Translations under genes and position numbers: made by a program
Notes under the pieces: generated by a model
What the model was told of the DNA's origin: nothing
What the model saw: only the letters and a program-made list of their open reading frames with translations
Database searches by the model: none
Origin: a virus
Reading direction: 5' to 3' (one strand)
DNA length: 37,837 bases
IMG/VR virus record: IMGVR_UViG_3300027917_000094
Coordinates: 1 to 37,837 of that record
Shown: piece after piece, positions 1,467 to 27,226 of the stretch
Layout of the letters: every line of letters begins with the position of its first letter
Numbering within the stretch: the first letter of the stretch is position 1

Positions 1467-1544
1467 TCGCGCTGTGTCGCGTTTTCGGAGGGGAGGGTAT
1501 GCAACCCTATGGAGGCACCTCAGTCGCAGACACAGGGGCTGCTA
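1467..1544. repeat. Dispersed 78-bp repeat, copy A
   Basis: The left box TCGCGCTGTGTCGCG starts the copy, TATGGAG lies at offset 41, and the right box GACACAGGGGCTGCTA begins at offset 62. Length and offsets are identical to copy C inside the portal gene, and both end boxes match copy C exactly. CTGTGTC and GACACAG form an inverted pair. The centre contains GTATGCAACCC, which resembles the core of the TATGCAA repeats near 13.6 kb. Confidence 0.7.
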
Positions 1545-1572
1545 GTGGCCTCTGTCGGGATTTCCGCGTATA

Positions 1573-1652
1573 TCGCGCTGTGTCGCGCCCTGAGCTCTGG
1601 AGGTGCTAGGGTATGGAGTCCAGCAGTGAAATGCGACACGGGGCAGCCTGGG
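1573..1652. repeat. Dispersed repeat, copy B
   Basis: The same left box TCGCGCTGTGTCGCG is followed by TATGGAG at offset 39 and by GACACGGGGCAGCCTGG starting at offset 62. Copy B lies 106 bases after copy A in the same orientation. Its right box is closer to that of copy D than to A or C. The sequence between boxes is otherwise unlike the other copies, so the conserved parts are the boxes and their spacing. Confidence 0.65.
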
Positions 1653-1682
1653 CAGGATTTCGGGCAGGTTTCGCCTGGGCGA

Positions 1683-1964
1683 CTACCTGGGTTCCCAGGG
1701 GCGTGGCCTGTCGCGCCGTAGCAGCCGCCCACGCCAGGTGCCGCGCCTACCCACCTCGTCATCGCACAGCCCCAGGCGATGCTCCGCATCCTGCCTGCGC
1801 TGGCACGGGGTGGCGCACGGGTGCTCGTGGCACTGGCGGCAGGCGCGCTGCTGCAGCTGCCACTCCACGCACCCCCACAGTTCGTGGTCAGTCAGCGCGG
1901 CCAGGAACTCCTTGAACAACCAGTCGGGGTCGCCCGCCTTGCGGTCAAGGTACTGGTTGCCCAC
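1683..1964 (-). CDS. Cysteine-cluster protein of unknown function (93 aa)
   Basis: The reading frame shows the strong GC third-position bias of real genes here, from a GTG at 1962-1964 down to a TAG. The visible core reads DPDWLFKEFLAALTDHELW, then a Cys cluster C-x2-C-x4-C-x3-C within ACRQCHEHPCATPC, then an acidic and basic tail. This could bind zinc. It overlaps the o-spanin candidate by 20 bases and is the last gene of the minus cluster. The GTG has no strong ribosome binding site, so the start is uncertain; translation coupled to the upstream stop is possible. Confidence 0.5.
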   Translation of the reverse strand: MGNQYLDRKAGDPDWLFKEFLAALTDHELWGCVEWQLQQRACRQCHEHPCATPCQRRQDAEHRLGLCDDEVGRRGTWRGRLLRRDRPRPWEPR

Positions 1965-2331
1965 ACCTGGGTTCCAGCGCGTTGTGCTCCTGCACCTTGC
2001 CAGCCCAGGCTGCTGCGTGGGCACGCCACAGTGCCTCGCGCTGCTCCACCACCTCAGCCACCAGCAACGCCCACGCCTTCCACTCCTCCTCGTCGGCATC
2101 GTGCCCTGGGTGGCCTGGGTACGTGGGCAGGTCCGGGGGTGGCAGCATGGCCACCTGCACCACGCAGGGCGACGGCACCTGCACGGTCACCACCTCTGGT
2201 TCCGGGCAGGGGTCTGGCATCGGCGCGGCGCTGCGGCAGCCGCAGAACCCCAGCCCCATGAGCAGCAGCAGCACCACCAGCAGGATGATGGCGTAGTCGC
2301 CAACGGTGGGCCAACGGCTGGGGCGCGTCAT
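1945..2331 (-). CDS. Probable o-spanin-like lipoprotein (Rz1 role)
   Basis: The ATG at 2329-2331 overlaps the stop of the i-spanin candidate as ATGA. The 128-residue product has a hydrophobic signal (AIILLVVLLLLMGLGF) ending in C30 and C32, then a proline-rich region (PMPDPCPEPEVV and a PPPDLPTYPGHPGH segment) and a helical C-terminal part. A Pro-rich lipoprotein directly after a TM/coiled-coil protein is the classic Rz/Rz1 pattern for outer-membrane disruption in Gram-negative hosts. The lipobox is not canonical, and the protein is longer than most Rz1 proteins. The pair arrangement is the main evidence. Confidence 0.55.
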   Translation of the reverse strand: MTRPSRWPTVGDYAIILLVVLLLLMGLGFCGCRSAAPMPDPCPEPEVVTVQVPSPCVVQVAMLPPPDLPTYPGHPGHDADEEEWKAWALLVAEVVEQREALWRAHAAAWAGKVQEHNALEPRCGQPVP

Positions 2332-2747
2332 GGCACCACCCCCGCTATGGCCTCCAGCGCCAGGCGGTAGGTCTGGCACTCCGACATGCCCACAGCCTGC
2401 TCCCGCAGCTGCCTGTACTTCTCGGCAACCACCCGCAGGTCGTCCTCTGCCCGCGCCAGCTGCGCCATGAGCCTGTCAATGGTGGCCTGGCGCTCTGCCG
2501 CCAGTCGCCCCCACTCCGCGCCCTGCTCCACCGCTGCGTTCTGCTCCTCGATCTTGGCGCGCAACGTGGCGATGGTCTGCTCCTTGGCCTGCACCTTGCG
2601 CTCCCAGGCGTCCACGGCCATCTTGTACGTGTCCACCTGCACGTCGTACGCCTGCAGCCTGCCGTGCTGTACCCACACCACCCCGCCCAGTACCAGGCAC
2701 ACCACCAGCAGCCCGCCTGTCGCGTAGACCAGTGGTCCGCTGAACAT
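2328..2747 (-). CDS. Probable i-spanin (Rz-like)
   Basis: The 139-residue product starts behind GAGGTGG. It has one N-terminal transmembrane segment (about residues 7-26, VYATGGLLVVCLVLGGVVWV). A long coiled coil of Lys, Glu, Gln and Ala heptads follows, from roughly residue 40 to 115. Rz proteins span the periplasm from the inner membrane and complex with an outer-membrane lipoprotein. The gene follows the amidase and holin candidate and overlaps the Pro-rich lipoprotein gene. Length, topology and context agree with the i-spanin role; sequence identity to known Rz was not tested. Confidence 0.65.
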   Translation of the reverse strand: MFSGPLVYATGGLLVVCLVLGGVVWVQHGRLQAYDVQVDTYKMAVDAWERKVQAKEQTIATLRAKIEEQNAAVEQGAEWGRLAAERQATIDRLMAQLARAEDDLRVVAEKYRQLREQAVGMSECQTYRLALEAIAGVVP

Positions 2748-2756
2748 GCCACCACC

Positions 2757-2981
2757 TCACTTCCCGTAGTCGCCCACCCCGTCCTTGGCCAGGCGCGTGT
2801 TGTCCACAGTGCGCTTCATGATGACGCCACCGTACAGCCCAGCGCAGGTGCCCAGGGCAGCCAGCCAGTTCCCAGCCGTGAAGTGCTCTGGCCGCATCCA
2901 GAAGAACCCACTGGCCACCGTCATGGCCATGCCACCGAACACCGTTACCCACAACCCCGTGCCAAGCTCGTACCACTTCAT
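2757..2981 (-). CDS. Candidate holin, two transmembrane segments (74 aa)
   Basis: The ATG at 2979-2981 overlaps the amidase stop as ATGA and has GGGAGTG upstream; an in-frame GTG nine bases earlier is less likely. Two hydrophobic segments are visible, residues about 7-28 (GTGLWVTVFGGMAMTVASGFFW) split by polar HFTAGN from about 41-57 (NWLAALGTCAGLYGGVIM). A charged C-terminus follows (KRTVDNTRLAKDGVGDYGK). Size, two-TM topology and a position between endolysin and spanins fit a class II-like holin. No family match can be claimed. Confidence 0.55.
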   Translation of the reverse strand: MKWYELGTGLWVTVFGGMAMTVASGFFWMRPEHFTAGNWLAALGTCAGLYGGVIMKRTVDNTRLAKDGVGDYGK

Positions 2982-3556
2982 GGTGCCCACTCCCTGCAGG
3001 CGTCAGCGATCACCGTCGCCTCGCGTGCCTGCCACGCTGGGTCCAGCAGCCTGCGCTGGTCCGCGTCGTTGGTGATGAACGCCAACTCCACCAGCACCGC
3101 TGGCATGTTGGTGCCAACCAGTACCGCGAACTGGCTCTCCTTGTCGGGGTCGCCGTCAGCAAAGTCGGCGCGCCCCCGCATGTCCGGGAACGCCTGGCGC
3201 ATGCGGTACCAGATCAGCCCAGCCAGGTAGTCCGCAGCGTCGGCTTCGCGGTTGGTCCACACCTCGTACCCGTGCGCGGCTGGGTCGGTGTAGGCGTTGC
3301 AATGGATGGACACGAAGCAGTGCGCGCCCCAGGTGTTGGCCAGGCGGCAGCGTGCCTGCAGGTCCGCGCCCAAGTCGTACGGGTTGAAGTCGTGGTCCGC
3401 GTACCTGGTCAGGTGGCACTGGTGCGCGTCGTTCATTCCGAAGTTGCCAGCCACCTGCAGCGCCATGGCCAGCGCCACGTCCTTTTCAGGTACGCCCGCG
3501 CTGCCCACCGCGCCTGGGTACGCACCACCGTGGCCTGGGTCAAGCATCACCCGCAT
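2978..3556 (-). CDS. N-acetylmuramoyl-L-alanine amidase endolysin (Amidase_3)
   Basis: The 192-residue enzyme cleaves the bond between N-acetylmuramic acid and L-alanine in peptidoglycan. The Amidase_3 signature is complete: LDPGHGG gives zinc ligand H9, E24 lies in GVPEKDVAL, H85 is in VSIHCNA, and catalytic E157 is in VLVELAFITND. There is no signal peptide and no cell-wall-binding domain, so it should need a holin. The ATG is preceded by a strong GGAGGTGA. It overlaps the 70-aa gene before it by 17 bases and the holin candidate after it by four. Confidence 0.92.
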   Translation of the reverse strand: MRVMLDPGHGGAYPGAVGSAGVPEKDVALAMALQVAGNFGMNDAHQCHLTRYADHDFNPYDLGADLQARCRLANTWGAHCFVSIHCNAYTDPAAHGYEVWTNREADAADYLAGLIWYRMRQAFPDMRGRADFADGDPDKESQFAVLVGTNMPAVLVELAFITNDADQRRLLDPAWQAREATVIADACREWAP

Positions 3557-3752
3557 CTGTCACCTCCAGTAGCTCTGCCAGCCTGCGCTCTGCCACTGCC
3601 CGCCCCAGCAGTTCCACCTGGCACCTGTCAGCCAGGTACTCCACCCTGTCGCGCAGGCGCTCCAGGTGCGACAGCGACACCACAACCAGGCCACCGTTGG
3701 GGTCCGGGCGGTAGCTGCCATCAGCACAGGCGCGCACACGCACATCACGCAC
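3540..3752 (-). CDS. Small helical protein before the endolysin (70 aa)
   Basis: The GTG at 3750-3752 directly follows the TAG of the previous gene, so translation is probably coupled. The product starts with a short basic part (MRDVRVRACADGSYRPDPN), then a valine-rich strand and a long charged helix (LSHLERLRDRVEYLADRC through AERRLAELLEVTD). It has no membrane segment. It sits in the lysis cassette between a TM/coiled-coil protein and the amidase. No function is recognised. Confidence 0.6.
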   Translation of the reverse strand: MRDVRVRACADGSYRPDPNGGLVVVSLSHLERLRDRVEYLADRCQVELLGRAVAERRLAELLEVTDAGDA

Positions 3753-4169
3753 CTAGGGCGTCCTGCTGGCCTGGAGCTTGCGCAGTTCCCTCACGTCTTC
3801 CTCAATGCGCTGTAGGATGCTGCGGTTGGTGGCTGCCAGGGTGTTGGCGCTCTGTACGTCGTCGCGCAGCCCGTCCAGCTTCGTGTCCACCACCTGGTTC
3901 ACCCTGCCGTTGACGTAGTCGTTGTGGTGCATGATCTCGTCACCCACGTACCGCGCCATGGCTGGTGCGCCTTCCGAACGCCACCACTCCCTGACCTGCG
4001 CCTTGCCCACGAACGTCGCAACAGCCCAGCCCAGGCTGCACACAGCAGCCAGCTGCAGCACCATGCCAGCTGCGAACTGCACCAGCGACAGGTTGACGCT
4101 GATGGCGCGGCCACCGTTGCCGTCGTTGTGGTAGGCGATGGTCGCCCGCCTGTTCTCATGCCTTGCCAC
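3753..4169 (-). CDS. Membrane protein with C-terminal coiled coil, lysis region (138 aa)
   Basis: The start is GTG at 4167-4169 with GGGGAGG upstream. One hydrophobic segment is visible near residues 28-55 (SLVQFAAGMVLQLAAVCSLG then WAVATFVG). It is followed by a soluble region with heptads toward the end (NRSILQRIEEDVRELRKLQ). Single-TM proteins with a coiled coil occur as holin-like or antiholin proteins beside phage endolysins. That context makes a lysis role plausible here, but a tail-associated membrane role cannot be excluded. Confidence 0.55.
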   Translation of the reverse strand: MARHENRRATIAYHNDGNGGRAISVNLSLVQFAAGMVLQLAAVCSLGWAVATFVGKAQVREWWRSEGAPAMARYVGDEIMHHNDYVNGRVNQVVDTKLDGLRDDVQSANTLAATNRSILQRIEEDVRELRKLQASRTP

Positions 4170-4170
4170 G

Positions 4171-4506
4171 TTACGTGCCCTCCCCTATCACCAGCCCATA
4201 CGTGCCCTCCCTGTGGGTGCCGCTGGGTATGTTGACCTTGAACCTGTAGGACTTCCGCTGGCCAGCTGTGAACGCGCCCAGGTCGTACCCGTTGGTGGGG
4301 TCCGTTGGCAGCACCGTGTAGCTCGCCCCACCGTTCACGCTCACGTACACCCTGTCCGCTTCGGTGGTGGACAGCAGCGCCGTGTCGTGTGCACAGGTTG
4401 CCTCAACGTCGGCGTCGAACAGGTAGTCCGTGCCCACGCGATACCAGGGGATGTAGATGTACCGCCACTCCATGGTGCCGTGCGGGTGCTTCAGCAGCAG
4501 CGCCAT
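4171..4506 (-). CDS. Unknown protein, probable tail-tip accessory (111 aa)
   Basis: ATG at 4504-4506 is preferred because GGAGG lies four bases upstream; a GTG one codon earlier overlaps the previous stop as GTGA. The product looks beta-rich, with alternating strands such as EWRYIYIPWYRVGTDYLFD and a YVSVNGGASYTVLP turn that resembles small carbohydrate-binding or tail-fibre accessory folds. It closes with NIPSGTHREGTYGLVIGEG. It lies between the coiled-coil gene after the tail proteins and the lysis cassette. No family is recognised. Confidence 0.6.
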   Translation of the reverse strand: MALLLKHPHGTMEWRYIYIPWYRVGTDYLFDADVEATCAHDTALLSTTEADRVYVSVNGGASYTVLPTDPTNGYDLGAFTAGQRKSYRFKVNIPSGTHREGTYGLVIGEGT

Positions 4507-4802
4507 CACCCCTCCACCTTGTCGGGTGGCAGCTGCACCAGCTGGCGTCGCCTGCCACCGCCCACGGGAATGGTGCGCCCGCCAGGTGGCGGCAGGTCGT
4601 CCTCGCGCACCTGGTGGTAGTCCTGCAGCAGCCCACGCGCCTCGTTCACCTTGCGCACCTCCGCGGCCAGCTTCTGCACGGTGCGCCCCTCCGCGGCCAC
4701 CATGGCCTCCAGCAGCATGGTGGCAGCCTGCACGATGCGGTCGGCTGCGCCAGCGATGCGGTGGCTGGCAGCCACAATGTCGTCAACCTGCTGCTGCTCC
4801 AT
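4506..4802 (-). CDS. Coiled-coil protein of unknown function (98 aa)
   Basis: ATG at 4800-4802 is chosen over an upstream in-frame start because GGAAGGGG precedes it. The first 70 residues form a continuous helix (MEQQQVDDIVAASHRIAGAA onward to EVRKVNEARGLLQDYHQV). A Pro/Gly/Arg-rich tail with GGRTIPVGGGRRR follows. Such proteins may trimerise as tail-fibre chaperones or connectors; nothing specific shows which. It follows the 416-aa baseplate-region gene after a two-base gap. Confidence 0.6.
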   Translation of the reverse strand: MEQQQVDDIVAASHRIAGAADRIVQAATMLLEAMVAAEGRTVQKLAAEVRKVNEARGLLQDYHQVREDDLPPPGGRTIPVGGGRRRQLVQLPPDKVEG

Positions 4803-4804
4803 AC

Positions 4805-6055
4805 CTACCCCTTCCCAGGCTTCCACCTGGCAGGCTCTGGCACCACCAACCAGTTGAACAGGAACGCGCCGAACTGGTACTTCGGGAACACGGTGCTCAG
4901 GCTGCGGTTCTGCTGCACGAACACGGTGGTGGTGCTGCCCGTTGCCTTGTCCTCGCGCTCAATGGCGCACACGATGTCACCCTTGTACGGTGGCCAGCAC
5001 TCAATGAAACAGTCGGGGTTCTCGTTGCTCAGGAACATGTACACCACGCAGTACCAGCTGTACTGCTGGTCGAGGATCTCCCGCGCCAGGTTGCCTGCCG
5101 CCTTGGTGGTTTCCCACCACATGTCCAGCCCCAGGTCGTAGCTGCGCATGTCGTTGTTCCAGTTCGGGGTGCCCTGCACCTGCTTCGTGTGGATCACGTC
5201 ATGGCGGTACGGGTACACGGGCGGGCGGTCGAAGAACACGTGCGTGAAGTACTCGTCGTTCAGCTGGAGGCCCCACAGGCTGACGTAGGCGTAGTGGGCC
5301 AGCACGAAGATGGTGTACCGCCACCAGCGGGGGCGCAGGTGGATGGTGTAGTTCGCGTCGGGGCGCAGCGCCAGCCAGTGGTAGCTGTCCAGGGGCGTGC
5401 CGTCGTCAGCGAAGCAGTTGTACCACTCGGGGTGGCTGAAATCGAACGGGGTGAACAGCAGGGTGTCGTTGGGGTTGCGCAGCACGATGCTGCTGCCCTC
5501 GTACCCGTGCATGTCCACCAGGATGGGTTCCTTCAGGTGGGTGTACCCGCGGAACCTGGAGTCCTGCGCCTCCGTCTCGTTCTTGAACGGCAGCCGTGCC
5601 CACGGCAGCGGCACCCCGTTGGGGTTGCGCGTGGCAGCCTCTGCTGGGTTGTGGTGCTTCAGTGGCTTCGTCACCACCTCCTGCGGGTTGATCTCTGGCA
5701 CCTCGTAGGTGGGGTCCAGCCACACGTGCGGGCACCTGGGCATGGGGTAGCACATGCCAGTCAGTTCGTCGCGCACGTCCACCTCTAGGAACCACCCCTC
5801 TATGCTGCCCGCGTACCTGTCGGTGCGGTCCACTGGCATGTGGGGCGACAACGGTTCGGGCCACTGGCGCATGGTGCGGCGCTCAACGTCACGGAAGCTG
5901 GCCTGCGTGCCACCGATGATCTCCGTGTTGAACTCGTAGAAGTAGTGCTCGTAGTCGCGGTCCTGCACGTACCACGCCAGGTCCAGGTTGGGCACGTTGC
6001 GGTCAACCTGCGACCGCCACATGGTGCCAGCGTCAGTGAACCGCAGCTGTATCAC
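4805..6055 (-). CDS. Aromatic-rich tail-tip/baseplate protein of unknown family (416 aa)
   Basis: The GTG at 6053-6055 overlaps the previous stop as GTGA, which fixes the likely start; the frame is open further but without a site. The protein is strikingly rich in Trp, Tyr, Phe and His, with runs such as RDYEHYFYEFN, FSHPEWYNCF, LRPRWWRYTIFVLAHYAY and WNNDMRSYDLGLDMWWE. The compact aromatic composition and the position after the hub-like pair suggest a tail-tip structural or receptor-contact protein. I recognise no enzymatic motif. Confidence 0.65.
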   Translation of the reverse strand: MIQLRFTDAGTMWRSQVDRNVPNLDLAWYVQDRDYEHYFYEFNTEIIGGTQASFRDVERRTMRQWPEPLSPHMPVDRTDRYAGSIEGWFLEVDVRDELTGMCYPMPRCPHVWLDPTYEVPEINPQEVVTKPLKHHNPAEAATRNPNGVPLPWARLPFKNETEAQDSRFRGYTHLKEPILVDMHGYEGSSIVLRNPNDTLLFTPFDFSHPEWYNCFADDGTPLDSYHWLALRPDANYTIHLRPRWWRYTIFVLAHYAYVSLWGLQLNDEYFTHVFFDRPPVYPYRHDVIHTKQVQGTPNWNNDMRSYDLGLDMWWETTKAAGNLAREILDQQYSWYCVVYMFLSNENPDCFIECWPPYKGDIVCAIEREDKATGSTTTVFVQQNRSLSTVFPKYQFGAFLFNWLVVPEPARWKPGKG

Positions 6056-12475: not shown

Positions 12476-13504
12476 CTAGATACTCAGCCCGCGGGCACGC
12501 AGCTGTGCCATGCGGCAGGTGCTTTCAGGTGACGCTGCGCTGGGCACCTCGCAGCGCACCCAGAACAGCACGTGGTCGCTGGGGTCAATGTCGCCCAGGC
12601 TCAGGTCGTCGCCAGCAGTCTGCCAGGTGCCTGGGCTGCCAGCCACGTCTGGCGCGAACGCGACCCAGGTGTACCCGTCGCGCACGTAGACGGTGATGCT
12701 GCTGCTGGTGGGGTCGGCGGTGGTGTCGGGCAGGATGATGCCCATGCCCGCCAGGTAGTCGTTCCCGTCGTCGTATCCGCTCACCCCGTACTCGTACTGG
12801 GTCACCCCGTCCATCTGCGCGTCCTCGACCGCCTTGTTCCCGTCCACCAGCACGTCCACGGTGTACTTCCCAGTGCCACCGTCCAGCTGCCTGTCGGTGA
12901 ACGTGATCACGAACGACCTCTTGCTGGCCATCTTGTGGCGCGTGGGGCTGCTGTGGGGTACCAGCCGCTCAATGTACTCCTCAGCACCCGTGCCGTCGAA
13001 GTACCACCCTGGCAGGCTGTAGATGTAGGTGCTCGCACTGATCTGTGTCCCCACGTTGCGGCAGGCCACCTGGCGGTTGCTGCTGTTGGCATCCGCGGCC
13101 ACAATCTCGAACTCCAGCACCTCCGTCACCACCGCGGACAGGTTCTGGTAGTTCCCGATGGTCACCTGCGCAGCCCAGCCCGTGTCCACGCTGGCCGACA
13201 CCACGATGCCCAGCCCAGGAATGATGTCCAGGTTCTCAGTGCTGCCGTCAGCAGTGACCGACAGCCCGCTACGGTCGCCCCAGGGGTTGCGGGCCAGCGC
13301 GCCATCACCAGTGGCCTCCACGTCCACGGTCACCGACCCTGACTTGGTGAACGTCAGTTCGTAGGTGCCCGCGACCGCCTGGCCGTTGGAGCGCCAGGTG
13401 ATGGAAGTGATGGGAGTGTTGGTGGTGTTTTCGTACCGCACGTCCAGGTCGCCAGTGCCCGACGTGGGGTCCGAACCGTACCGCAGAACCAGGTCAGCAC
13501 TCAT
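12476..13504 (-). CDS. Tail-associated virion protein, paralogue of the gene at 13984-15018
   Basis: ATG at 13502-13504 has AGGAGG upstream. The 342-aa product aligns along its length with the 344-aa product of the gene before it: SADLVLRYGSDPTSGTGDLD matches GADVVLRWAADDSATGSLD, both continue with DVRxxNTxxTPx, both have YxLPGxYxxG near the middle, and both end with a DGxxW strand, GTxQ and LxLGD before a short tail. This indicates tandem duplication and divergence. The fold is probably beta-rich. Function is unknown; tail-tip decoration or host binding is likely from location. Confidence 0.65.
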   Translation of the reverse strand: MSADLVLRYGSDPTSGTGDLDVRYENTTNTPITSITWRSNGQAVAGTYELTFTKSGSVTVDVEATGDGALARNPWGDRSGLSVTADGSTENLDIIPGLGIVVSASVDTGWAAQVTIGNYQNLSAVVTEVLEFEIVAADANSSNRQVACRNVGTQISASTYIYSLPGWYFDGTGAEEYIERLVPHSSPTRHKMASKRSFVITFTDRQLDGGTGKYTVDVLVDGNKAVEDAQMDGVTQYEYGVSGYDDGNDYLAGMGIILPDTTADPTSSSITVYVRDGYTWVAFAPDVAGSPGTWQTAGDDLSLGDIDPSDHVLFWVRCEVPSAASPESTCRMAQLRARGLSI

Positions 13505-13549: not shown

Positions 13550-13569
13550 TATGCAAACGCCATGCCAGG
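13550..13569 (+). repeat. TATGCAA repeat, copy 1 (plus orientation)
   Basis: The copy reads TATGCAAACGCCATGCCAGG. It matches the two minus-strand copies at 13701-13721 and 13749-13769 in the pattern TATGCAA-C-CC-TGCCAG with the same internal spacing. It lies just upstream of the 342-aa tail gene, facing the other two copies. Confidence 0.55.
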
Positions 13570-13599: not shown

Positions 13600-13679
13600 T
13601 TCACGTGTGTCGCATTTTGACGGAGTGGGGTAGGCAAGTATATGGAGAGCCGGTCCGGGCGCGACACAGGGCAGCCTGG
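13600..13679. repeat. Dispersed repeat, copy D
   Basis: A diverged left box (ACGTGTGTCGCATTT) is followed by TATGGAG at offset 41 and by GACACAGGGCAGCCTGG at offset 63, the same geometry as copies A and C. TGTGTCGC and GCGACACA form a perfect 8-bp inverted pair here. Confidence 0.6.
13617..13644 (+). promoter_or_regulatory. Sigma70-like promoter match inside repeat copy D (weak)
   Basis: TTGACG and TATATG are separated by 16 bases on the plus strand. On the minus strand the same place gives TATACT (13637-13642) with TGTCGC 18 bases upstream, which could serve the 342-aa tail gene. Only one orientation, or neither, may be real. A plus-strand transcript would be antisense to tail genes, which argues against that direction. 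Confidence 0.2.
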
Positions 13680-13700: not shown

Positions 13701-13721
13701 TCTGGCACGGTGGTTGCATAC
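13701..13721 (-). repeat. TATGCAA repeat, copy 2
   Basis: On the minus strand it reads GTATGCAACC then ACCGTGCCAGA. It shares TATGCAA-C-CC-TGCCAG with the copies at 13550 and 13749. It starts 48 bases from copy 3, in the same orientation. Confidence 0.55.
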
Positions 13722-13748: not shown

Positions 13749-13769
13749 CCTGGCACAGGGGTTGCATAC
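13749..13769 (-). repeat. TATGCAA repeat, copy 3
   Basis: On the minus strand it reads GTATGCAACC then CCTGTGCCAGG. It is a direct repeat of copy 2. Together the three copies surround dispersed repeat copy D, as expected of a multi-site protein-binding region. Confidence 0.55.
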
Positions 13770-13798
13770 GCGAGGTGGCATGAGGTGTGCATGCGAAT

Positions 13799-13981
13799 TC
13801 ATCGGCTCGCCCTTCGGGTTGGAACGTACCCCACTGGGTGGGGGTGCATGTGCTCCCACACGAGGTCGCGGTACCGCCAACGGCTGGCCGCATCGCTGGG
13901 TTCGATCACCACCGCACCTGGCAGGTCCGCGGTGTGAATGACCCGCACTCGCTGCCCACAGTCGCAACGCCACACCTCCAC
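13799..13981 (-). CDS. Small protein between duplicated tail genes (60 aa)
   Basis: The GTG at 13979-13981 lies two bases after the TGA of the preceding gene, with GGAGG placed correctly inside that gene's last codons, so translation is coupled. The product begins VEVWRCDCGQRVRVIHTADL and ends in a His/Arg-rich tail. The CDC-G pair followed by strand-forming residues resembles half of a zinc ribbon, but a second Cys pair is missing. GC third-position bias supports coding. No function is assigned. Confidence 0.5.
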   Translation of the reverse strand: MEVWRCDCGQRVRVIHTADLPGAVVIEPSDAASRWRYRDLVWEHMHPHPVGYVPTRRASR

Positions 13982-13983
13982 CT

Positions 13984-15018
13984 TCAGACCTCCATGTACG
14001 TGACCCGTGGCACCCATAGCCTCACCGCCCCACGTGCCTGGCCCTCTGGTACCTGCCACCCCAGCCAGAGGTGCACCGTGGCACCCGCGGCCAGGTCGCC
14101 CAGCAGTAGCTCGCTGTTCTGGAATGTGCCCGCGCTGCCGTTCGTGTCGTTGGCCACCCGCGCCCACGACCAGCCGTCGCGGATCACCACCGTGACGGTG
14201 TCGCTGGTGGGGTCGGCTGTGACCTTGGCGAACACCACCTGCAGCCCAGCCAGCCTGTCGGTGGCGTCCACGTACCCGTTGCCGCTCCCGTGCTCGTACA
14301 CGGTCTCGCCGTCGAACTTCGCAGTAGCGATACAGAGCGAGCCGCCGATGTTGACGTTGGCCGTGTAGTACGACCCCTGGTTGGTCCAGGTGTCGAACGT
14401 CATGGACTTGCTGGCAGCCGTGGCCAGCACCGCACGGTCAGGGTCGCTGTGCGGACCCAGGCGCACGATGTGGGTGGTTGCGATGTCGCCCGTGTAGTAC
14501 GCGCCTGGCAGCGGGTACACCCGCAGGTCTGCCGCCATGCTGCTGCCGATGTTGTGCAGCACCGCACGGAACGACACCAGCACCCCGTCGTTGGCCTGGA
14601 TGCCGAAGTTCAACGCACTGGTGTCAACGCCACCCGCGGACAGGTACGCGCCCACCGACACGACAGCCTCGTCGGTGTCGCCAGTGCCCGCGCTGAACAC
14701 CAGGCGCAGGCCAGGCACCACCAGGTCGTTGGGCGTGCTGCCGTCCTTGACTATGGTCACGCCCGTGGTGGGGTTGTGCCAGGGGTTGGCGTCGCCCAGG
14801 TCCGCGTTCACGTAGCACGTGGTGCCACTGAAGGTCAGGGTGTACACGTCGGCCACCGTCTGGCCGTTGTACCCACCGTCCAGCGGGTACCCGCTCTCGC
14901 TCAGGTCGCGCCGCACGCAGCTGACCAGTGGCGTGCCGCTGGTGTTCACCCAGCGCACGTCCAGGCTGCCTGTGGCACTGTCGTCTGCCGCCCAGCGGAG
15001 GACCACGTCTGCACCCAT
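13984..15018 (-). CDS. Tail-associated virion protein, paralogue of the gene at 12476-13504
   Basis: ATG at 15016-15018 is preferred, with GGAG six bases upstream; a GTG one codon earlier abuts the preceding TAG. The 344-aa protein shares its full-length pattern with the 342-aa product downstream, from DVVLRWAAD near the start, through LRVYPLPGAYYTGDIATTHI and the HSDP-R segment, to RDGWSWARVAND and LLLGDLAAG near the end. The copies have diverged strongly, keeping Gly/Pro/Trp positions. It probably forms part of the tail tip or a fibre. No catalytic motif is seen. Confidence 0.65.
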   Translation of the reverse strand: MGADVVLRWAADDSATGSLDVRWVNTSGTPLVSCVRRDLSESGYPLDGGYNGQTVADVYTLTFSGTTCYVNADLGDANPWHNPTTGVTIVKDGSTPNDLVVPGLRLVFSAGTGDTDEAVVSVGAYLSAGGVDTSALNFGIQANDGVLVSFRAVLHNIGSSMAADLRVYPLPGAYYTGDIATTHIVRLGPHSDPDRAVLATAASKSMTFDTWTNQGSYYTANVNIGGSLCIATAKFDGETVYEHGSGNGYVDATDRLAGLQVVFAKVTADPTSDTVTVVIRDGWSWARVANDTNGSAGTFQNSELLLGDLAAGATVHLWLGWQVPEGQARGAVRLWVPRVTYMEV

Positions 15019-15021
15019 CAC

Positions 15022-15459
15022 CTACTCCATTCGCACCAGCACGATGTGCGCCTCGTACACCCGGAACACCGCGGGCACGTCGTCGCCTGCCTCGTCGGTC
15101 TCGGGGTGGTCTGCCACCATGGGCACCCAGTCCTGCTCGTCGTCAGGGGCGAACGCGCACAGGATGGTGGTGCTGGTGCCCACCTCCAGCTTCGCGTACA
15201 TCAGCCCCAGCGTATTGCGCAGCGCCTGCAGGGTGGCCATCTGCGTGCCGTTGAGCCTGCGCACGAACAGCCGCAGCATGCGCTTCGCCTGGTCGGTGCC
15301 GTACTGCACCACGCACGGGGTGTTCACCAGGCTGTACCGCACACTGGTGCCCAGGCTGCCCTCCTCCCACCGCTCCTCCACGATGGGTGGGTGTGGGAAC
15401 AGCAGCTGCGTCACCCCGTCGTAGGTTTCAATGCCTACCTCGTCGTCTTCAAAGCTCAT
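15022..15459 (-). CDS. Tail protein following the tape measure, possible distal-tail role (145 aa)
   Basis: The ATG overlaps the tape measure stop as ATGA, with GGAGGTGA upstream. The product starts with acidic MSFEDDEVGIETYDGVTQLL, has an HPPIVEERWEEGSLG turn and a helix LNGTQMATLQALRNTLG, and ends in beta strands (VFRVYEAHIVLVRME). In siphoviruses the slot directly after the tape measure usually encodes the distal tail protein or a minor tail protein at the tube-tip junction. The length and beta/alpha mix agree, but the family is not identified. Confidence 0.6.
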   Translation of the reverse strand: MSFEDDEVGIETYDGVTQLLFPHPPIVEERWEEGSLGTSVRYSLVNTPCVVQYGTDQAKRMLRLFVRRLNGTQMATLQALRNTLGLMYAKLEVGTSTTILCAFAPDDEQDWVPMVADHPETDEAGDDVPAVFRVYEAHIVLVRME

Positions 15460-17828
15460 GGTAGGTCACCTCCCTGCGGTGGCGCGTCGGTGACTGGTTT
15501 GATCGGCCACACCAGCGGGTGGCTGTTGGCGTACTCCTGCAGTTCGTCCATCTTGTTCTTGATGGCCTGCGTGCCCTCCTCGCCAGCGCCCATGAACCCA
15601 CCACCCAGTTCTGCCTTGACCCGCTCGGCTGCCTCGCCAGCCGCCTGCCCCAGCATGTCCGGGAGCTTTATCAGTTCGCCGGTCAGCGCGTCGGTCATCT
15701 CGGTCATGGCACCAGTGATGGCTGGCATCATCTGCTCGTAGGCTGGACCCATGCTGCCGATGTCCGTCACCAGCTGCTGCAGTGCTGGCACCTGCTTCTG
15801 CGCCAACTCCGCGCTCATTTCCTTCACGCCCTCGCCAAGCTCAGACCACGGCACCTTGTACCGCTTCACGTTCTCCAGGTTGGTGATCAGCTGGTCACCG
15901 AAGTCGCCAGCGCCCTCGCCCAGGTCAATGCCCAGGTCCTTCAGCTTCTTGTAGTCCCGCACCTGGTCCTGTATTGCCTTGATGACATCGCTGCGGGTCA
16001 CCACGTTGTACTTCTCGCGCAGCGCCTCGGTGGTGGCGTCGATCTGTTGCTTCTGTGCCAGCAGCGCCTCCTTCACCCGGTCCATGCGCCGCTGCTCCTT
16101 GTCGGCCTCCTCGTTCACCTCCTCCAGGGTGTCGCGTTGCCGTATGCGCGCCTGGATCTCCTGCTGGAGCTTGTCGTGCATCTCAGCCAGCGCCCTGGCG
16201 TTGTCCTTGGTGTGCTGGGTGTTGATCTTCCACTCGTCGCCCACCAGCCCCAGCTTCTTCTTCTGTAGCTCCAGCTGGTCAATGGTCATGGCGAATAGGG
16301 CACCGTTACCAGCAAGCTCCTCAGCGAACTCGGACATGGGGTCCATGGCTGGGTCGAACATGCCCGCCATGGCCTTCCCCAGGTCGTAGGCGAGCGGGAT
16401 CAGTGACACCAGCACAGCCAGTAGCCCACCGCTGCCCAGCATTCCCCTGAGCTTGTGGCCCGCGGTGCTGGCCGTGAACATGGCCTGGCTCATCAGCCCA
16501 GTCTGTGCCGTGGCACGTGCGCTGCTGATGGTGAACCCGTTGGTGGCCATGGTGGCGACACCAGTGGCCTTCGTGTAGGTGCTCATGGCTGCAGCCAGCA
16601 CCCCCACCGACTTGATGAACGTGCCCAGCAAGATGATGAGCGGGGGCACCACCAGCCCCAGGGTGGCAAAGAACGCCAGGAACCCCTTGGTGACTGGTGA
16701 CATGTTGCCCAGCACCATGGTCACGTTCTCCACCGCGCCCGCAATGCGCTCGAACAGCGGCACCACCGTGGGCAGTATCTTGTCACCTAGCTCTAGGAAG
16801 CTGTCCTTGACCGTCTGCAGTGCCTTATTGAACCGTACCTTGTACGACACCTCCGCTTCCTGCGCTGCCAGCGCCAGGTCCTCGCTGGTGGTCTTGGCCA
16901 GGCTGTCGAAGATCTCCTGGGTCTTTTCAGCGTTGGCACCCACCAGGTTCAGCACGCCACTGAGGGCGCGCACGTTGGGGAACACCTTGGTCATGGCCTC
17001 CTCGTTGTCACCGAACCGCTGGCGCAAGGTCAGCAGCACGTCCAGCAGCCCCTTCTCGCGCAGCTGTGTGCGCAGGCCACTGGCCGACAACCCGAAGGCT
17101 TCTAGTTGATCGCGGGCACCCTTCGTGGGCTTCAGCAGGGTGGCCATCACGCTGCGCAGCATGGTGGCCGACTCCTCGGCGTTCACGCCCAGCCTGGTCA
17201 TGGCAGCGTACGCTGCGCCCACCTGGTTGAACGACACCCCCAGTTCACTGGCAATGGGCAGCACCCGCCCCAGCGTGGGTGCCAGCGTGCTGGCCTCCAG
17301 GTTGCCCTCGCGCACCGTCTTGACCAGGATGGCCACGGCCTCGCTGGCGTCCAGGTTGGCCGCGCCGTAGGCGTTGACCGCGGACACCGCAGCGAACGCC
17401 ACGTTCTTGGTCTCGCCCAGTCCGATCTTGGCAGCCTGCGCGCTGGCCTTCAGGATCTCCATGGCGGTCTTGCCACGGGCACCAGCACTGGTGATGAAGA
17501 ACATGGCCTCTGCCAGGTCGTTGGCAGACTGGCCCGTTGCCTTGGCAGTCTCCCGCACGTCGCCACGCCAGGCGTTCACCTGGTCCCTGGCAATGCCCAC
17601 CAGGCTGACCATGCGGTTCAGGCTGTCGTCGAAGTCCGCGGCCATCTTGGCGCTGGCGGCACCCACTGCAGCCAGGGGCAGTGCCACCTTCATGGTCAGG
17701 TTGTTGCCAACCGACTGCATCTTGCTGCCCAGCGCCTGGGTGTTCTTGGCCACGCGCTGCATGGCGTTCTCGAACCCCTTGGTGTCGCCAGACAGCACCA
17801 CCAGCAGGTCAGCCACTCGCAGTGCCAA
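15456..17828 (-). CDS. Tail tape measure protein
   Basis: The 790-aa protein starts at TTG 17826-17828 behind GGGAGGACACG, an unusual start decided by this ribosome binding site. It begins ALRVADLLVVLSGDTKGFENAMQ and has the tape-measure helix pattern ADFDDSLNRMVSLVGI plus a GQSANDLAEAMFFITSAG region typical of TP901-type core domains. Hydrophobic segments lie near residues 385-425 (FLAFFATLGLVVPPLIILLG) and 480-500. A coiled coil follows around 560-620 (RIRQRDTLEEVNEEADKEQR). It sets tail length and enters the cell envelope at injection. At roughly 0.15 nm per residue the tail would be near 120 nm. Confidence 0.9.
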   Translation of the reverse strand: MALRVADLLVVLSGDTKGFENAMQRVAKNTQALGSKMQSVGNNLTMKVALPLAAVGAASAKMAADFDDSLNRMVSLVGIARDQVNAWRGDVRETAKATGQSANDLAEAMFFITSAGARGKTAMEILKASAQAAKIGLGETKNVAFAAVSAVNAYGAANLDASEAVAILVKTVREGNLEASTLAPTLGRVLPIASELGVSFNQVGAAYAAMTRLGVNAEESATMLRSVMATLLKPTKGARDQLEAFGLSASGLRTQLREKGLLDVLLTLRQRFGDNEEAMTKVFPNVRALSGVLNLVGANAEKTQEIFDSLAKTTSEDLALAAQEAEVSYKVRFNKALQTVKDSFLELGDKILPTVVPLFERIAGAVENVTMVLGNMSPVTKGFLAFFATLGLVVPPLIILLGTFIKSVGVLAAAMSTYTKATGVATMATNGFTISSARATAQTGLMSQAMFTASTAGHKLRGMLGSGGLLAVLVSLIPLAYDLGKAMAGMFDPAMDPMSEFAEELAGNGALFAMTIDQLELQKKKLGLVGDEWKINTQHTKDNARALAEMHDKLQQEIQARIRQRDTLEEVNEEADKEQRRMDRVKEALLAQKQQIDATTEALREKYNVVTRSDVIKAIQDQVRDYKKLKDLGIDLGEGAGDFGDQLITNLENVKRYKVPWSELGEGVKEMSAELAQKQVPALQQLVTDIGSMGPAYEQMMPAITGAMTEMTDALTGELIKLPDMLGQAAGEAAERVKAELGGGFMGAGEEGTQAIKNKMDELQEYANSHPLVWPIKPVTDAPPQGGDLP

Positions 17829-22141: not shown

Positions 22142-22151
22142 GTCACACCTC

Positions 22152-23330
22152 CTACCAGGTCCACGCCACGGCTTCGATCACGCAGACCGACGCCTCGTGG
22201 CGCACACCAAGGTCGTGGTGGGCAAGGAGCTTCAGCACCGTCTGGTCCAGGCTGAACGCTGACTGCAGGTTGCTGCCGTCGTGGTACGCAGCCACGTCGC
22301 TGGCACTCACCTCCAGCGTGTTGGCCTCACCGATCAGCACGTCCGCAAAGTCGGCCAGGTACACCTCACTCTGCGTGCCCGTGCCCACGTTGTCAGGCAC
22401 AGTGGTGGTGCTGGCGTAGGGGAAGCTGAACAGTCGCCCAGTCGCCATCTCCGCGGCGAACACCAGGTTGCCGTTGCCGTCGCGGAGGGTGCGCAGGTAG
22501 AACTCGGTGCGTGGCGACATGATCCACGCGGGCCGCAGCATGCGCACGTTCGCGTTCCGCAGGTAGAGGATGGCGGTTGCCAGGTCCTCGGTCACGGTGG
22601 CGAGCGTGGGGCTGCCCTGCGCGTCGAACTTGTTCGTTGCCCAGTGGTACAGCCCCTTCGGGGCGAACGCGCTGCCGTTGGAGCGCAGGAACGCTGCGTC
22701 CTCTGTCAGCGCCAGGCTGGCCACGCAGTCGTCACGCACGATGCCGTCTGCGTTGGCCACGTTGAACCTGAGCAGGTCGTTGGACATGGGCACCAGCACA
22801 GCCAGCTTCTTCCAGCTGAGGCTGATCTGCCCGAACGTCTGCTCGCTGACGCCCAGGTTCTGGTTCTCACCGATGTAGCTGCCAGTGGCACCACCAGTCA
22901 GCTTCGGCATCGTCATGCTGCCCGTGGCCATGGGGATGATGGTGGGTGACAGGCTGCGGATCACAGCGCGCTCCCGCAGGAGTTCGATCACGTCCGCGCT
23001 GTACTCGCTGGGCACCAGCACACCACCTGCCTCGGCGTCGCTCGCGGACAGCGCCTTGGCCATGGTCTCGTCGCCCCAGTGCTTGCGGGCGAAGGCAGCA
23101 GCACCCTCAGGGGTGCGGCCACCTGCGATGGCGCGCAGGAAACGGCCAGCGCGCAGCCCGCGGGTTTCCTTGGTCAGCGGCACGGGCTGGTGCGTCTGGT
23201 CGGCCAGGCGGTTGATGGCCTGGGCCAACCCGTCGCGCTCCCGCGCCTGGTTGTCCTGTGCCAGCAGGTCGCCCACCAGTTCCTTGACCAGTGCGGTGAC
23301 CTGACTGGCGGTTTCGGCTGTCAGGTTCAT
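22152..23330 (-). CDS. Major capsid protein (HK97 fold)
   Basis: The 392-aa protein has TAGGAGG upstream. It starts with a helical prodomain (residues 1-110, with SQVTALVKELVGDLLAQDNQ). The mature region follows: AGGVLVPSEYSADVIELLRE, then AVIRSLSPTIIPMATGSMTM, PKLTGGATGSYIGENQ, the E-loop-like segment and the P-domain KKLAVLVPMSNDLLR. NGSAFAPKGLYHW and a DFADVLIGEANTLEVSASD stretch come later. The GG-L-VP and G-Y-GE patterns match HK97. The prodomain is probably removed by the neighbouring protease, and no separate scaffold gene is seen. Confidence 0.92.
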   Translation of the reverse strand: MNLTAETASQVTALVKELVGDLLAQDNQARERDGLAQAINRLADQTHQPVPLTKETRGLRAGRFLRAIAGGRTPEGAAAFARKHWGDETMAKALSASDAEAGGVLVPSEYSADVIELLRERAVIRSLSPTIIPMATGSMTMPKLTGGATGSYIGENQNLGVSEQTFGQISLSWKKLAVLVPMSNDLLRFNVANADGIVRDDCVASLALTEDAAFLRSNGSAFAPKGLYHWATNKFDAQGSPTLATVTEDLATAILYLRNANVRMLRPAWIMSPRTEFYLRTLRDGNGNLVFAAEMATGRLFSFPYASTTTVPDNVGTGTQSEVYLADFADVLIGEANTLEVSASDVAAYHDGSNLQSAFSLDQTVLKLLAHHDLGVRHEASVCVIEAVAWTW

Positions 23331-23340
23331 GGTAGTCCTC

Positions 23341-24771
23341 CTAGTCGGGTAGCTGCCCAGTGCGGGCTGTCATGGCCTCGGCCACGGCATCCTTCACCAG
23401 GGCAGCCACAGCGTCCGCGTCCACCTCCTCGGGTGGGTCGGGCGCGTTGTTGATCTTGGTCGATGCCTCCGCGAAGGTGCCCAGCGCCTTGGCATGCTCC
23501 TCCAGGGCGGCTGTGGTACCCGCGAGGGCAGCGATCAACTCGTCCACCTTCGCTTCGTCCATGATGTCCTCCAGGTCTGTGCCGTGCTGCTCTGCGTGGT
23601 GCCTGGCCACCCCCGTGCTGGTACCACCCGCGCCCACGATGGGGTAGTCGGTCGTGGTCCAGGTTAGGGTGTGGGTCTGCACCTGCGTGTCGTCGCCGTT
23701 GGCCAGGCTGGCAGTGTTGGTCACTACTGTGGGTGACCCAACGACATACCCCGCCTGCTTCCATACGGTCTCCAACACGTTGCGCGGCAGCACCGCGTTC
23801 AGTTGCCCCACAACGGGGTCACCGTCCAACACCCGCGCAGCCCAATGCCGCAGGGGTGCTATGTCGATTCCCATGGCACCTGCCTGCACCAGCGCCTCCG
23901 GGTTGGCAGGCACTGGCACCCAGCTGTGCTCCAGTAGCTCGTTCTTCAGGAAGTCGTACCCGTGGTGGTCCTCGTTGACGGTCCACTCCAGGGGTCGGAA
24001 GCCCACCGACTTGGCGCGCAGGAACCCACCCTGCACCAGGCGGTACACCATGTACCCGAACGGGTTGGCGTCCTGGGGCGTGAAGCGGTCCACGGACACC
24101 AGGGCGTTGTTGCCGTCCAGGTACATGTCCACGCTGCGGGCCACGGGTGGCGACCAGTAGTCGTGCGCCCACAGGACCACTGGGTTGCGCTGGTAGTGGC
24201 TCAGGTCCCAGCCGTCCTGGTAGATCACATCGTTCTCGCGGTCCACGGCCTCGGTGCTGATGACCGTGCCGTAGTCGTACATGCCAGTGCCAGGGTCCAG
24301 CCCGCCCTGCTTCACCTGGCACGTGACCAGCTTCACCATGGGTGGTGCCGTGTCGGCGTCGCCCATGCGGTTCACCTGGTCTACCCAGCTGGCGCGCTCC
24401 AATAGCTTGGTCGGTGGTCTGTCCATGGCTGCCCCCTCGCGTTCTGGTAGTGCGGCCAGCAGCTGCCCAGCCGCCTCGTAGATGTCGTCATGCCCCTGCT
24501 GGCTGGCGCGGCTGCGTATGGCTGCCAGCGCCCGCCTGTACACCTGGCCTTCCTTGCCGAACGGGTACGCCCACGCACCCTTCGTCTCCGGGTCCTCCTC
24601 GGTGCGCCTGCCCAGGAACCACCTGCTGTAGTTGCCCCAGTTCGGTGGGTCGCCCAGCAGCGCGTCACCGTCAGCACCACTGAACGACCACGGGCTGTCA
24701 CTGTTGACCTGCCCCCGTGCTATGAGCCGTGAGGCGTGTGCCCGACCCCTGCTGTTCAACCGCATCGGCAT
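23341..24771 (-). CDS. Prohead protease (HK97-type) with extra N- and C-terminal regions
   Basis: ATG at 24769-24771 follows GAGGGGG; upstream residues in the frame lie inside the portal gene and are rejected. The 476-aa product is twice the usual length. The protease core occupies about residues 145-300: VISTEAVDRENDVIYQDGW, catalytic H203 in LWAHDYWSPP, S255 in RAKSVGFRPLEW and ELLEHSWVPVPANPEAL. Before it lies a 110-residue region (MRLNSRGRAHASRLIARGQ to QQGHDDIYEAAGQLLAA) possibly binding DNA or capsid. After it is an acidic helical tail (AKVDELIAALAGTTAALEEH) that may act as scaffold. Confidence 0.85.
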   Translation of the reverse strand: MPMRLNSRGRAHASRLIARGQVNSDSPWSFSGADGDALLGDPPNWGNYSRWFLGRRTEEDPETKGAWAYPFGKEGQVYRRALAAIRSRASQQGHDDIYEAAGQLLAALPEREGAAMDRPPTKLLERASWVDQVNRMGDADTAPPMVKLVTCQVKQGGLDPGTGMYDYGTVISTEAVDRENDVIYQDGWDLSHYQRNPVVLWAHDYWSPPVARSVDMYLDGNNALVSVDRFTPQDANPFGYMVYRLVQGGFLRAKSVGFRPLEWTVNEDHHGYDFLKNELLEHSWVPVPANPEALVQAGAMGIDIAPLRHWAARVLDGDPVVGQLNAVLPRNVLETVWKQAGYVVGSPTVVTNTASLANGDDTQVQTHTLTWTTTDYPIVGAGGTSTGVARHHAEQHGTDLEDIMDEAKVDELIAALAGTTAALEEHAKALGTFAEASTKINNAPDPPEEVDADAVAALVKDAVAEAMTARTGQLPD

Positions 24772-24781
24772 GGCTGCCCCC

Positions 24782-27226
24782 TCACTTGATGAACACCAAC
24801 CGCTCGGCACAGCGGCACCGCACGTGTATGTCCTGTGGGGTGTAGACCGCACCCTTGTCCGTCTCCCACGGCTCGCCAATGTTGGTCAGCGCACGCTCGC
24901 CCACCATGGCACCGCACAGCCTGCACAGGTGTTCATCGTTGGTCAGGATCCACTTCCGCTTCACGTTTTCCTTGGGCAGCAGCCCACCCTGCTGCGCGGC
25001 CTCCCATAGCATTTCCTGCCCGCGGTTGCCAGCGTACTTCAGTTCGTTGGTGGCGATGATCTCGGCGCGCTCCTTGATCTTCTTTTTCACCCACCGCTCC
25101 AGCTTCGCGTTGGCGTCCTCCACGGACATGCCCTCTGCCAACCACTGCTCGTACAGGCGCTTCCGCTGCTCCACCTGCGCGGTGGTCAGCCCCAGGCTGT
25201 CGCGCATCTGCCGTGCGATCTCCTGGGGCGTGTACCCCTGGTCGTACCCAGCCACCAGCAGCCTGCGCAGTGCCTCTATGGTCTCGTCGGTCACGTTGGT
25301 CACCATGCCCGCGCCGAACTGCTCTAGCTCCTGCAGGGCGGCAGGGTTCAGCAGTTCAAACGACAGCGGCTCGCCCAGCACCTCTGCCAGTTCCGCAGCT
25401 GCTGCGTCGCCCACCGTCAGCAACGCTGCCCGCATGGTCTGCCTGGCGTCCTCGAACGCTTCCGTGGCTGGTAGGCGGTCCACCACGGCCACCGCTGCCG
25501 CCAGGTCGCCACGCTCCAGGGCAGCCACCACAGCCTGCACGTCCAACTCGCCAGCCAGGGCGTGGAACGCCTCCATCAGGTCGTCCACCAGCTGTGGCCC
25601 GAACTGCTCGGCCAGTGCCTGCACCGCTGGCCCGCCCACCTGGCGCTGCACCACGGCCAACGCCACCGCGTCAGCCCAGGCGGTTGCCACTGGGTCGGGC
25701 TGGGCTGGCACCAGGGCAGCATGGGCACCACAGGTGCAGCCAGCCCCATGGTCAGATACCAGGGGCGCGGCATCGCCAGAAATGCCTTGCGACGTCGCGC
25801 TGTGTCGCGTTTCAGCACCCTCCTCCATGTGCTGGTATGGAGGGAGGTTCGGCGCTGACACAGGGGCTGCTATGGATGCTCCAGTCGGCGGCTGGGTTGG
25901 CACAGGGGTGCCCACCTGGCCAGTGGGTACCAGCTGTTCGTTGAGCTTCAGCAGGTGCACCTGGCCGCGGTCGTCTGGCAGTGGGTCCAGCCCAGCCATG
26001 CAACGCCACTCGTCCATGGCCAGCGCCCAGGGTGCTGCCTTGGCCACCTCCAGCTGGTAGTCCGCGTTCTCCTCTACGGGCGATTCGTACCCCAGCACCA
26101 GCCGCTCGTCGTACATGGGCACCAGGTGGGTCTGCAGGTACGCCCTGAAGAACTCCAGCCGCGGCTCCACCACGTGCTTCGCGAACAGGTAGTCCGCGGC
26201 GTCAATGGTGGCGCGGTTGCTGCTCTCGATAATGCCCAACACCTCGGGAGGCATGCCCACGGTGTGCACGATCACGTCGCGCTCCCACCTGCGCAGTTCG
26301 GTCAGCTGCATGTCGCTGAACTTCTGCGATAGCTCCTTCACCTGCACGGCAGCACCAAGGAACAGAGGCTTATGGCGGTTCAGGAAACCACCCACCCGCT
26401 GCATCCACTTGGCCTCCAGGCGGTCGGTGTCTGCCTTGCCCAGCCCCTCGCCGTACACCAGCAGGTCCGGTCGGGCGCTGTTGTAGAACCAGCTGCGCAC
26501 GTGCTTGCTGGCGAACTCGTCGGTGTCGATCTCGTCGCCCAGTGCGCGCAGCAACCCTGTGCCCCTCTTGTACGGGTTGACCGGGTTGGGGTCCACGAAC
26601 CACACCACCAGTTCCATGGGCACGTCGATGCCCGTGCTGCTGCCAGCAGGCTCCAGCCTGAAGCTCTTGCGGTCCGACGTTGGCACTGCCTTGACCCAGG
26701 TGGGCGGCACCAGCCAGAAGTCCATGGGCACCAGCCGCCCCTGCACCACGTCGGCCTCCAGCAGCCAGAACGCCTCACCAGTCAGTTCCAGGTACAGCTG
26801 CGTCAGGGTGCGCCCCACGTTGCCAGGGAACGCCATGGCTGCGTTGTTCAGCAGCCCCAGCAACGGGTGGTCCACCACCTGCACAAGCTCCACGCCCTCG
26901 GGCAGGTCCACCAGCTTCCTGCGGTACGCACCGCGTTCCACGCCACGCGCCTGCAGTGCCGCCGACCGCAGGTACCTGCGCGTCACCTCGCTGCGGGTGG
27001 CGTATAGCTGCCACTGCACGCTGCCCACTGCCTGCGCCACCTTGCTGCTCACCGCACGCACCCACGGGCTGCGGCTGTAGGCGTCCAGCATGCCCTGCAC
27101 CCCACGCTCTGGTGCCAGGCGCACGTCGCTGGGCAAGAGTGCCGCCATGATCTGCTCTGCCTCGGGGGCACCTGCCATGGTCTGCTTCAACCCCAGGGCG
27201 CTGGCCAGCCGTGTCATCATGCCCAT
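24782..27226 (-). CDS. Portal protein fused to a MuF-type head morphogenesis domain (814 aa)
   Basis: ATG at 27224-27226 follows GAGGTG; a GTG three codons earlier is possible. Residues about 1-440 are an HK97-type portal: SPWVRAVSSKVAQAVGSVQW, DHPLLGLLNNAA, LYLELTGEAFWLLEAD, YKRGTGLLRALGDEID and the channel-lining RWERDVIVHTVGMPPEVLG. A Pro/Thr-rich linker (about 440-510) contains dispersed repeat copy C. The C-terminal region (about 560-814) is a helical MuF domain ending WILTNDEHLCRLCGA (C768, C771) and HVRCRCAERL (C804, C806). Separate genes are the common arrangement. Confidence 0.9.
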   Translation of the reverse strand: MGMMTRLASALGLKQTMAGAPEAEQIMAALLPSDVRLAPERGVQGMLDAYSRSPWVRAVSSKVAQAVGSVQWQLYATRSEVTRRYLRSAALQARGVERGAYRRKLVDLPEGVELVQVVDHPLLGLLNNAAMAFPGNVGRTLTQLYLELTGEAFWLLEADVVQGRLVPMDFWLVPPTWVKAVPTSDRKSFRLEPAGSSTGIDVPMELVVWFVDPNPVNPYKRGTGLLRALGDEIDTDEFASKHVRSWFYNSARPDLLVYGEGLGKADTDRLEAKWMQRVGGFLNRHKPLFLGAAVQVKELSQKFSDMQLTELRRWERDVIVHTVGMPPEVLGIIESSNRATIDAADYLFAKHVVEPRLEFFRAYLQTHLVPMYDERLVLGYESPVEENADYQLEVAKAAPWALAMDEWRCMAGLDPLPDDRGQVHLLKLNEQLVPTGQVGTPVPTQPPTGASIAAPVSAPNLPPYQHMEEGAETRHSATSQGISGDAAPLVSDHGAGCTCGAHAALVPAQPDPVATAWADAVALAVVQRQVGGPAVQALAEQFGPQLVDDLMEAFHALAGELDVQAVVAALERGDLAAAVAVVDRLPATEAFEDARQTMRAALLTVGDAAAAELAEVLGEPLSFELLNPAALQELEQFGAGMVTNVTDETIEALRRLLVAGYDQGYTPQEIARQMRDSLGLTTAQVEQRKRLYEQWLAEGMSVEDANAKLERWVKKKIKERAEIIATNELKYAGNRGQEMLWEAAQQGGLLPKENVKRKWILTNDEHLCRLCGAMVGERALTNIGEPWETDKGAVYTPQDIHVRCRCAERLVFIK
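25795..25872. repeat. Dispersed 78-bp repeat, copy C, inside the portal-MuF gene
   Basis: Left box TCGCGCTGTGTCGCG, TATGGAG at offset 41 and right box GACACAGGGGCTGCTA at offset 62 all match copy A exactly, as does the total length. At 78 bases (26 codons) it keeps the frame. It encodes part of the linker between portal and MuF domains, including AAPVSAPNLPPYQHMEEGAE. Confidence 0.65.

Follow-up and report, generated by a model that had tools for sequence, protein, structure and literature searches.

What role can a short repeat play that recurs four times in one phage genome, in a gap between convergent genes, between two tail genes and within the portal gene? The window analysed here is the whole of IMG/VR record IMGVR_UViG_3300027917_000094, a stretch of 37,837 bases without end repeats, and its gene content is of the siphophage type. 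Small plus-strand genes occupy positions 1-1316, and the main landmarks are the following:

2978-3556, minus strand: endolysin
15456-17828, minus strand: tape measure
22152-23330, minus strand: major capsid
23341-24879, minus strand: protease
24782-27235, minus strand: portal-MuF fusion ORF
33817-35013, minus strand: TerL

Portal and MuF-type head morphogenesis domains are joined in this one ORF at 24782-27235 (minus strand), as they are in L006, L007, L008 and L104; short repeats at L006:2000-3500 and L008:2300-3500, often spaced by multiples of 63 bp, point to a protein with repeats of 21 residues. A QueC-like gene at 35622-36854 (minus strand; PF06508 above cut-off) hints at a 7-deazaguanine modification pathway, and 311-607 (plus strand) gives a weak, below-cut-off match to the Lar restriction-alleviation family.

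The syntenic relative G011 (L112) measures 60.8 kb and, with its endolysin at 53.9 kb and a tail gene at 2.0 kb, appears to be circularly permuted. Because of this length and apparent permutation, the early region of the present phage is probably absent from the window, and further copies of the repeat may be absent with it. The capsid gene has its best isolate relatives in phages of Proteobacteria, and the terminase its best relative in a phage of an acidobacterium; sigma-54 is common in both groups.

A family of four two-armed repeats

A sequence-only reading had proposed a dispersed family of four copies sharing left, middle and right boxes, and both the copies and their positions were confirmed:

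1467-1544, plus strand: copy 1, with left arm TCGCGCTGTGTCGCG, TATGGAG at 1508-1514 and right arm GACACAGGGGCTGCTA, in a convergent intergenic gap
1573-1652, plus strand: copy 2, head to tail with copy 1 (start to start 106 bp)
13600-13679, plus strand: copy 3, with TGTGTCGC at 13606, TATGGAG at 13641 and GCGACACAGGG at 13661, inside an insertion absent from the relatives L096-L100
25795-25872, plus strand: copy 4, inside the portal-MuF ORF 24782-27235 (minus strand), at about residues 455-481, in a variable linker

All four thus lie on the plus strand. The left box TGTGTCGC starts at 1473, 1579, 13606 and 25801, the middle box TATGGAG at 1508, 1612, 13641 and 25836, and the right box GACAC[A/G]GGG at 1529, 1635, 13663 and 25857. 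The left box is as first described except in copy 3, where it reads TTCACGTGTGTCGCA. From left-arm start to right-arm start the distance is 56, 56, 57 and 56 bp in copies 1 to 4, and the right arm of copies 1 and 4 has one extra base (CGC[A/T]GACACAG). These same two copies have 19 bp (GTCGCGCTGTGTCGCGTTT) and 16 bp (GACACAGGGGCTGCTA) in common, equally separated. Copies 2 and 3 share an additional box, GTTTCG[C/T]CTGG, some 33 bp to the right of the start of the right arm; together with the head-to-tail spacing of copies 1 and 2 at 106 bp, it suggests a unit of about 106 bp (1467-1680).

In order to score the family, we used a profile of 27 positions in three boxes with flexible gaps, applied to both strands. 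Copies 1 to 4 score 26, 27, 24 and 27 of 27; the best score elsewhere in the window is 20 on the plus strand and 19 on the minus strand, leaving aside the copies' own near-palindromic matches (at most 21). The possibility raised at the outset, that such boxes might be as frequent in shuffled sequence, is not borne out, as 200 dinucleotide shuffles of the window reached a maximum of 22 over both strands. An nhmmer profile returns the four copies with E values of 4e-15 to 6e-12, and nothing beyond them in the relative loci fetched by then. Between pairs of copies, 25-32 of the 32 box positions counted are identical (32/32 for copies 1 and 4), and the spacers are 26-50% identical, mostly near chance. 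Conserved boxes, fixed spacing and free spacers together argue for a binding-site-like constraint and against a recently copied miniature element (MITE).

The convergent, intergenic and intragenic placement of the copies was likewise borne out. The convergent gap 1317-1682 at the end of the late operon contains copies 1 and 2, the former preceded by a plus-strand terminator-like site (1409-1436), and copy 3 sits between two tail genes. No sigma-70 promoter was found at copies 1-3. Pattern scans of viral, bacterial, phage and plasmid collections gave no further copy, the strict pattern had 0 matches in the bacterial/archaeal genome collection, and a tail-gene search of that collection for prophages gave none. 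Three pattern matches in viral contigs were dismissed as chance: L005 (AT-rich coding sequence), L014 (coding, in a palindromic contig) and L015 (35% GC). L014 itself is perfectly palindromic over two arms of 5,053 bp, probably through an assembly artefact.

Copy 3 and its sigma-54-like surroundings

Querying for close relatives with the tail gene that lies downstream of copy 3 (12476-13504, minus strand) brought up five that are closer: L096 (81%) and L097-L100 (76%). The tail gene and the tail gene at 13984-15021 (minus strand) are adjacent paralogues with about 35% identity in cross-matches, a duplication that close relatives also have. The locus is composed as follows:

12476-13504, minus strand: tail gene downstream of the minus-strand sigma-54-like site, 76-82% identical in L096-L100
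13505-13798, no strand: noncoding insertion of 294 bp between a 58-aa ORF (13799-13975) and the tail gene

In all five relatives the homologue of the small ORF 13799-13975 abuts the tail gene without a noncoding gap, and in L096 the ATGA overlap of the two was read directly. ATGA, the stop/start overlap of the flanking genes, also stands at both edges of the 294-bp insertion. Of four occurrences of the heptamer TTGCATA/TATGCAA in the window, three fall in the copy-3 insertion and one in copy 1, and this clustering led to a scan for sigma-54 promoters. Published sigma-54 elements read tGGcacg at -24 and tTGCt at -12 (PMC4641369); we scanned for TGGCACG-N4-TTGCW, requiring GG and GC and scoring out of 12. 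The sites of interest are:

13552-13567, minus strand: sigma-54-like site TGGCATGGCGTTTGCA, 11/12, pointing to the tail gene 12476-13504
13703-13718, plus strand: sigma-54-like site TGGCACGGTGGTTGCA, 12/12, antisense to the late genes
13751-13766, plus strand: sigma-54-like site TGGCACAGGGGTTGCA, 12/12
13776-13791, plus strand: sigma-54-like site TGGCATGAGGTGTGCA, 10/12
25898-25912, plus strand: degenerate sigma-54-like site TGGCACAGGGGTGCC, with one base missing between its -24 and -12 elements

The window holds only two 12/12 sites, both in the copy-3 insertion, with 0.07 expected by shuffling, and the remaining sites of at least 10/12, which lie outside the insertion, are present in chance number. 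Across 2000 dinucleotide shuffles of the insertion, its count of sigma-54-like sites was not matched once. An RBS-like AGGAGG lies between the minus-strand site 13552-13567 and the tail-gene ATG; three of the four sites in the insertion, those on the plus strand, run antisense to the late genes. Copy 3 stands between a divergent pair of sites with 5' ends 136 bp apart, its TATGGAG being at a distance of 74 bp from the minus-strand 5' end and of 62 bp from the 5' end of the first plus-strand site.

The other copies lack such surroundings. No sigma-54-like site of at least 10/12 was found around copies 1 and 2 (1317-1682) or around copy 4 (25740-25960), so that an intact promoter does not adjoin every copy. 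Copy 4 retains TGGCACAGGGG, with TGGCAC 62 bp from its TATGGAG, at the same offset as the 13703 site of copy 3; copy 2 retains only TGG, at the matching offset from its right arm, and in copy 1 the corresponding position is cut off by copy 2. The earlier statement that no single known role explains all copies stands in part, a sigma-54 context accounting for copy 3 only.

A comparable arrangement is found in the relative G004 (L103), which a search for relatives of gene 1683-1964 returned along with one unrelated phage only. The late operon of G004 ends with 413 bp of noncoding sequence, adjacent to the homologue (55%) of that gene and thus at the locus that copies 1 and 2 occupy in the window. 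The region has sigma-54-like sites of 12/12 (1781, minus strand), 11/12 (1713, plus strand) and 10/12 (1916, plus strand), a count matched by 0 of 2000 dinucleotide shuffles; the defining spacing of 10 bp between the -24 GG and the -12 GC, in the TGGCACG-N4-TTGCW context, is present here as it is beside copy 3. A TATGGAG at 1847 lies between minus- and plus-strand sites that span 135 bp, against 136 bp in the window; its flanks are CTGTCC and GGGACAG, separated by 14 bp, in place of the arms of the window's repeats. TATGGAG, the divergent sites and their distance are thus common to both regions. Their overall similarity is modest, being reached by 2, 0 and 4 of 500 shuffles in three scorings, and a stretch of coding sequence from another phage reaches an equal score. 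The likeness of the copy-3 region to G011 (L112) was rejected as chance since the match falls in a coding ORF, which leaves less weight for the similar score of G004. A gapped pattern for the shared layout matches G004 only in the viral collection; having been designed with G004 in view, it shows rarity and is not independent confirmation. The 413-bp region of G004 also contains a consensus sigma-70 promoter, TTGACA-N17-TATATT (L103:1660-1693, minus strand), upstream of ORF 964-1602.

Known systems and competing explanations

Bacterial units of an upstream activating sequence and a sigma-54 promoter resemble the copy-3 region in having a -24 TGGCAC and a -12 TTGC rightly spaced with respect to the consensus (PMC4641369), and a conserved inverted repeat upstream of the promoter. 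Intragenic sigma-54 sites, some of them antisense, are common in bacteria (PMC4591121, PMC9765219). The present family differs in its location in a phage late region, in arms that start 56-57 bp apart instead of forming a single short dyad, in three copies without a promoter, and in that no phage-coded activator was found. Regarding the latter, a gene for an AAA+ enhancer-binding protein (PF00158) was not found in ten relative records, mostly partial, and for this reason a candidate activator would probably come from the host. PilR-type (C/G)TGTC half-sites were considered as an activator motif and rejected as too loose to claim; NifA-like TGT-N11-AGA and GTCT elements are mentioned as PilR hallmarks (PMC6058289).

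Among phages, the SAS/ESAS elements of cluster K mycobacteriophages are dispersed repeats whose function is not known, and they likewise combine a short asymmetric box (GGGATAGGAGCCC in SAS) with an imperfect pair of inverted repeats and a spacer (PMC3203893). ESAS arms lie upstream of the box and adjoin start codons, whereas here the arms flank the box, the box itself differs, no 13-bp SAS at a start codon with 17-bp inverted repeats upstream is seen, and none of the four copies is at a plus-strand start codon. The stoperators of cluster A mycobacteriophages are repressor sites distributed across the phage genome, as these copies are, although they are short, asymmetric single sites in large number, compared with four two-armed sites here (PMC9283540). 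We file the family as a variant among the dispersed phage regulatory sites.

The stoperator likeness points to the strongest competing explanation, in which a phage repressor would occupy the four sites as operators or roadblocks and block or terminate late transcription in the prophage, the sigma-54-like sites being unrelated. We consider this possible, if rather doubtful. It stands close behind the sigma-54 enhancer reading because all four copies share one orientation relative to the late operon, one of them within a gene; the constraint on the boxes is operator-like, and the spread of stoperators over phage genomes offers a precedent (PMC9283540). Against it, no repressor or integrase was found among the window proteins scanned, in a window that probably lacks the early region; there are only four sites, with a two-armed 80-bp geometry unlike the short asymmetric stoperator; and the sigma-54-like cluster around copy 3 is left unexplained.

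Of the roles suggested by the sequence-only reading, a binding site array fits best, and a MITE-like element or a structural RNA is unsupported. A miniature mobile element with 12-16 bp inverted ends would share with MITEs its short length, inverted ends and several loci, and could draw on the position of copy 3 within an insertion absent from five relatives and on the linker around copy 4, which is about 24 aa longer than that of L104 and about 30-50 aa longer than that of other kin. We nevertheless regard it as improbable, given that the copies are not alike along their whole length: interiors diverged to about chance next to intact ends are unlike the decay of copies of one element. Furthermore, flanking target duplications are neither clear nor consistent, the copy-3 insertion measures 294 bp and not 78-80, and no copy was found in the viral, bacterial, phage or plasmid collections.

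A structured regulatory or processing RNA closed by the arms is very improbable: the arms can pair in 4/4 copies (copy 2 includes a G-U pair, copies 1 and 4 leave a bulge), yet 7 of 8 strand/copy folds are no better than shuffles (z-scores -1.4 to 0.4, the exception being the minus strand of copy 4 at -3.4), nearly invariant arms yield no covariation (a weak test with four sequences), the interior has no common fold, and Rfam, searched at the gathering and at relaxed thresholds, gave nothing but chance matches. A hairpin immediately before TATGGAG was rejected, as it is not common to all copies.

A putative enhancer in a phage late region

The reading that we prefer, at a probability of roughly 0.4, is that the four copies are sites of one oligomeric transcription regulator, with copy 3 acting in an enhancer-like manner on sigma-54 promoters. 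Here we infer protein binding, sigma-54 use and the identity of the responding genes alike. The regulator would grip the two inverted arms, CTGTGTCGC and GCGACACAG, whose starts lie 56-57 bp apart, and would also contact the asymmetric TATGGAG box between them. Copy 3 would be placed like a bacterial enhancer, or upstream activating sequence, between divergent sigma-54-type promoters, one of which would face distal tail genes; the bound enhancer-binding protein would then loop to the sigma-54 RNA polymerase, and the distal genes would be turned on whenever the host's activator is in its active state. Copies 1, 2 and 4 could be accessory sites, serving as roadblocks of late transcription, as decoys, or persisting as remnants of older promoter cassettes. 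As their boxes are intact, the putative binding function seems to have been retained at each of the four loci, whether or not a promoter accompanies it. A bolder version, which we hold to be unlikely, is that a transplanted divergent sigma-54 cassette ties the distal tail genes, and possibly the lysis genes, to a host enhancer-binding protein, while the copies in the late operon, including the one in the portal gene, tune or silence from afar.

As a rule, phages have their late genes transcribed with the housekeeping sigma factor or with factors of their own. If the sigma-54 enhancer reading is true, late promoters of the sigma-54 type and a dedicated two-armed enhancer would couple virion assembly to a cue from the host (stress, nitrogen, motility or pili, for instance), and the phage would provide a directly testable case of borrowed enhancer-dependent transcription. 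If the copies are repressor roadblocks instead, a two-armed type would join the short list of genome-dispersed phage control sites.
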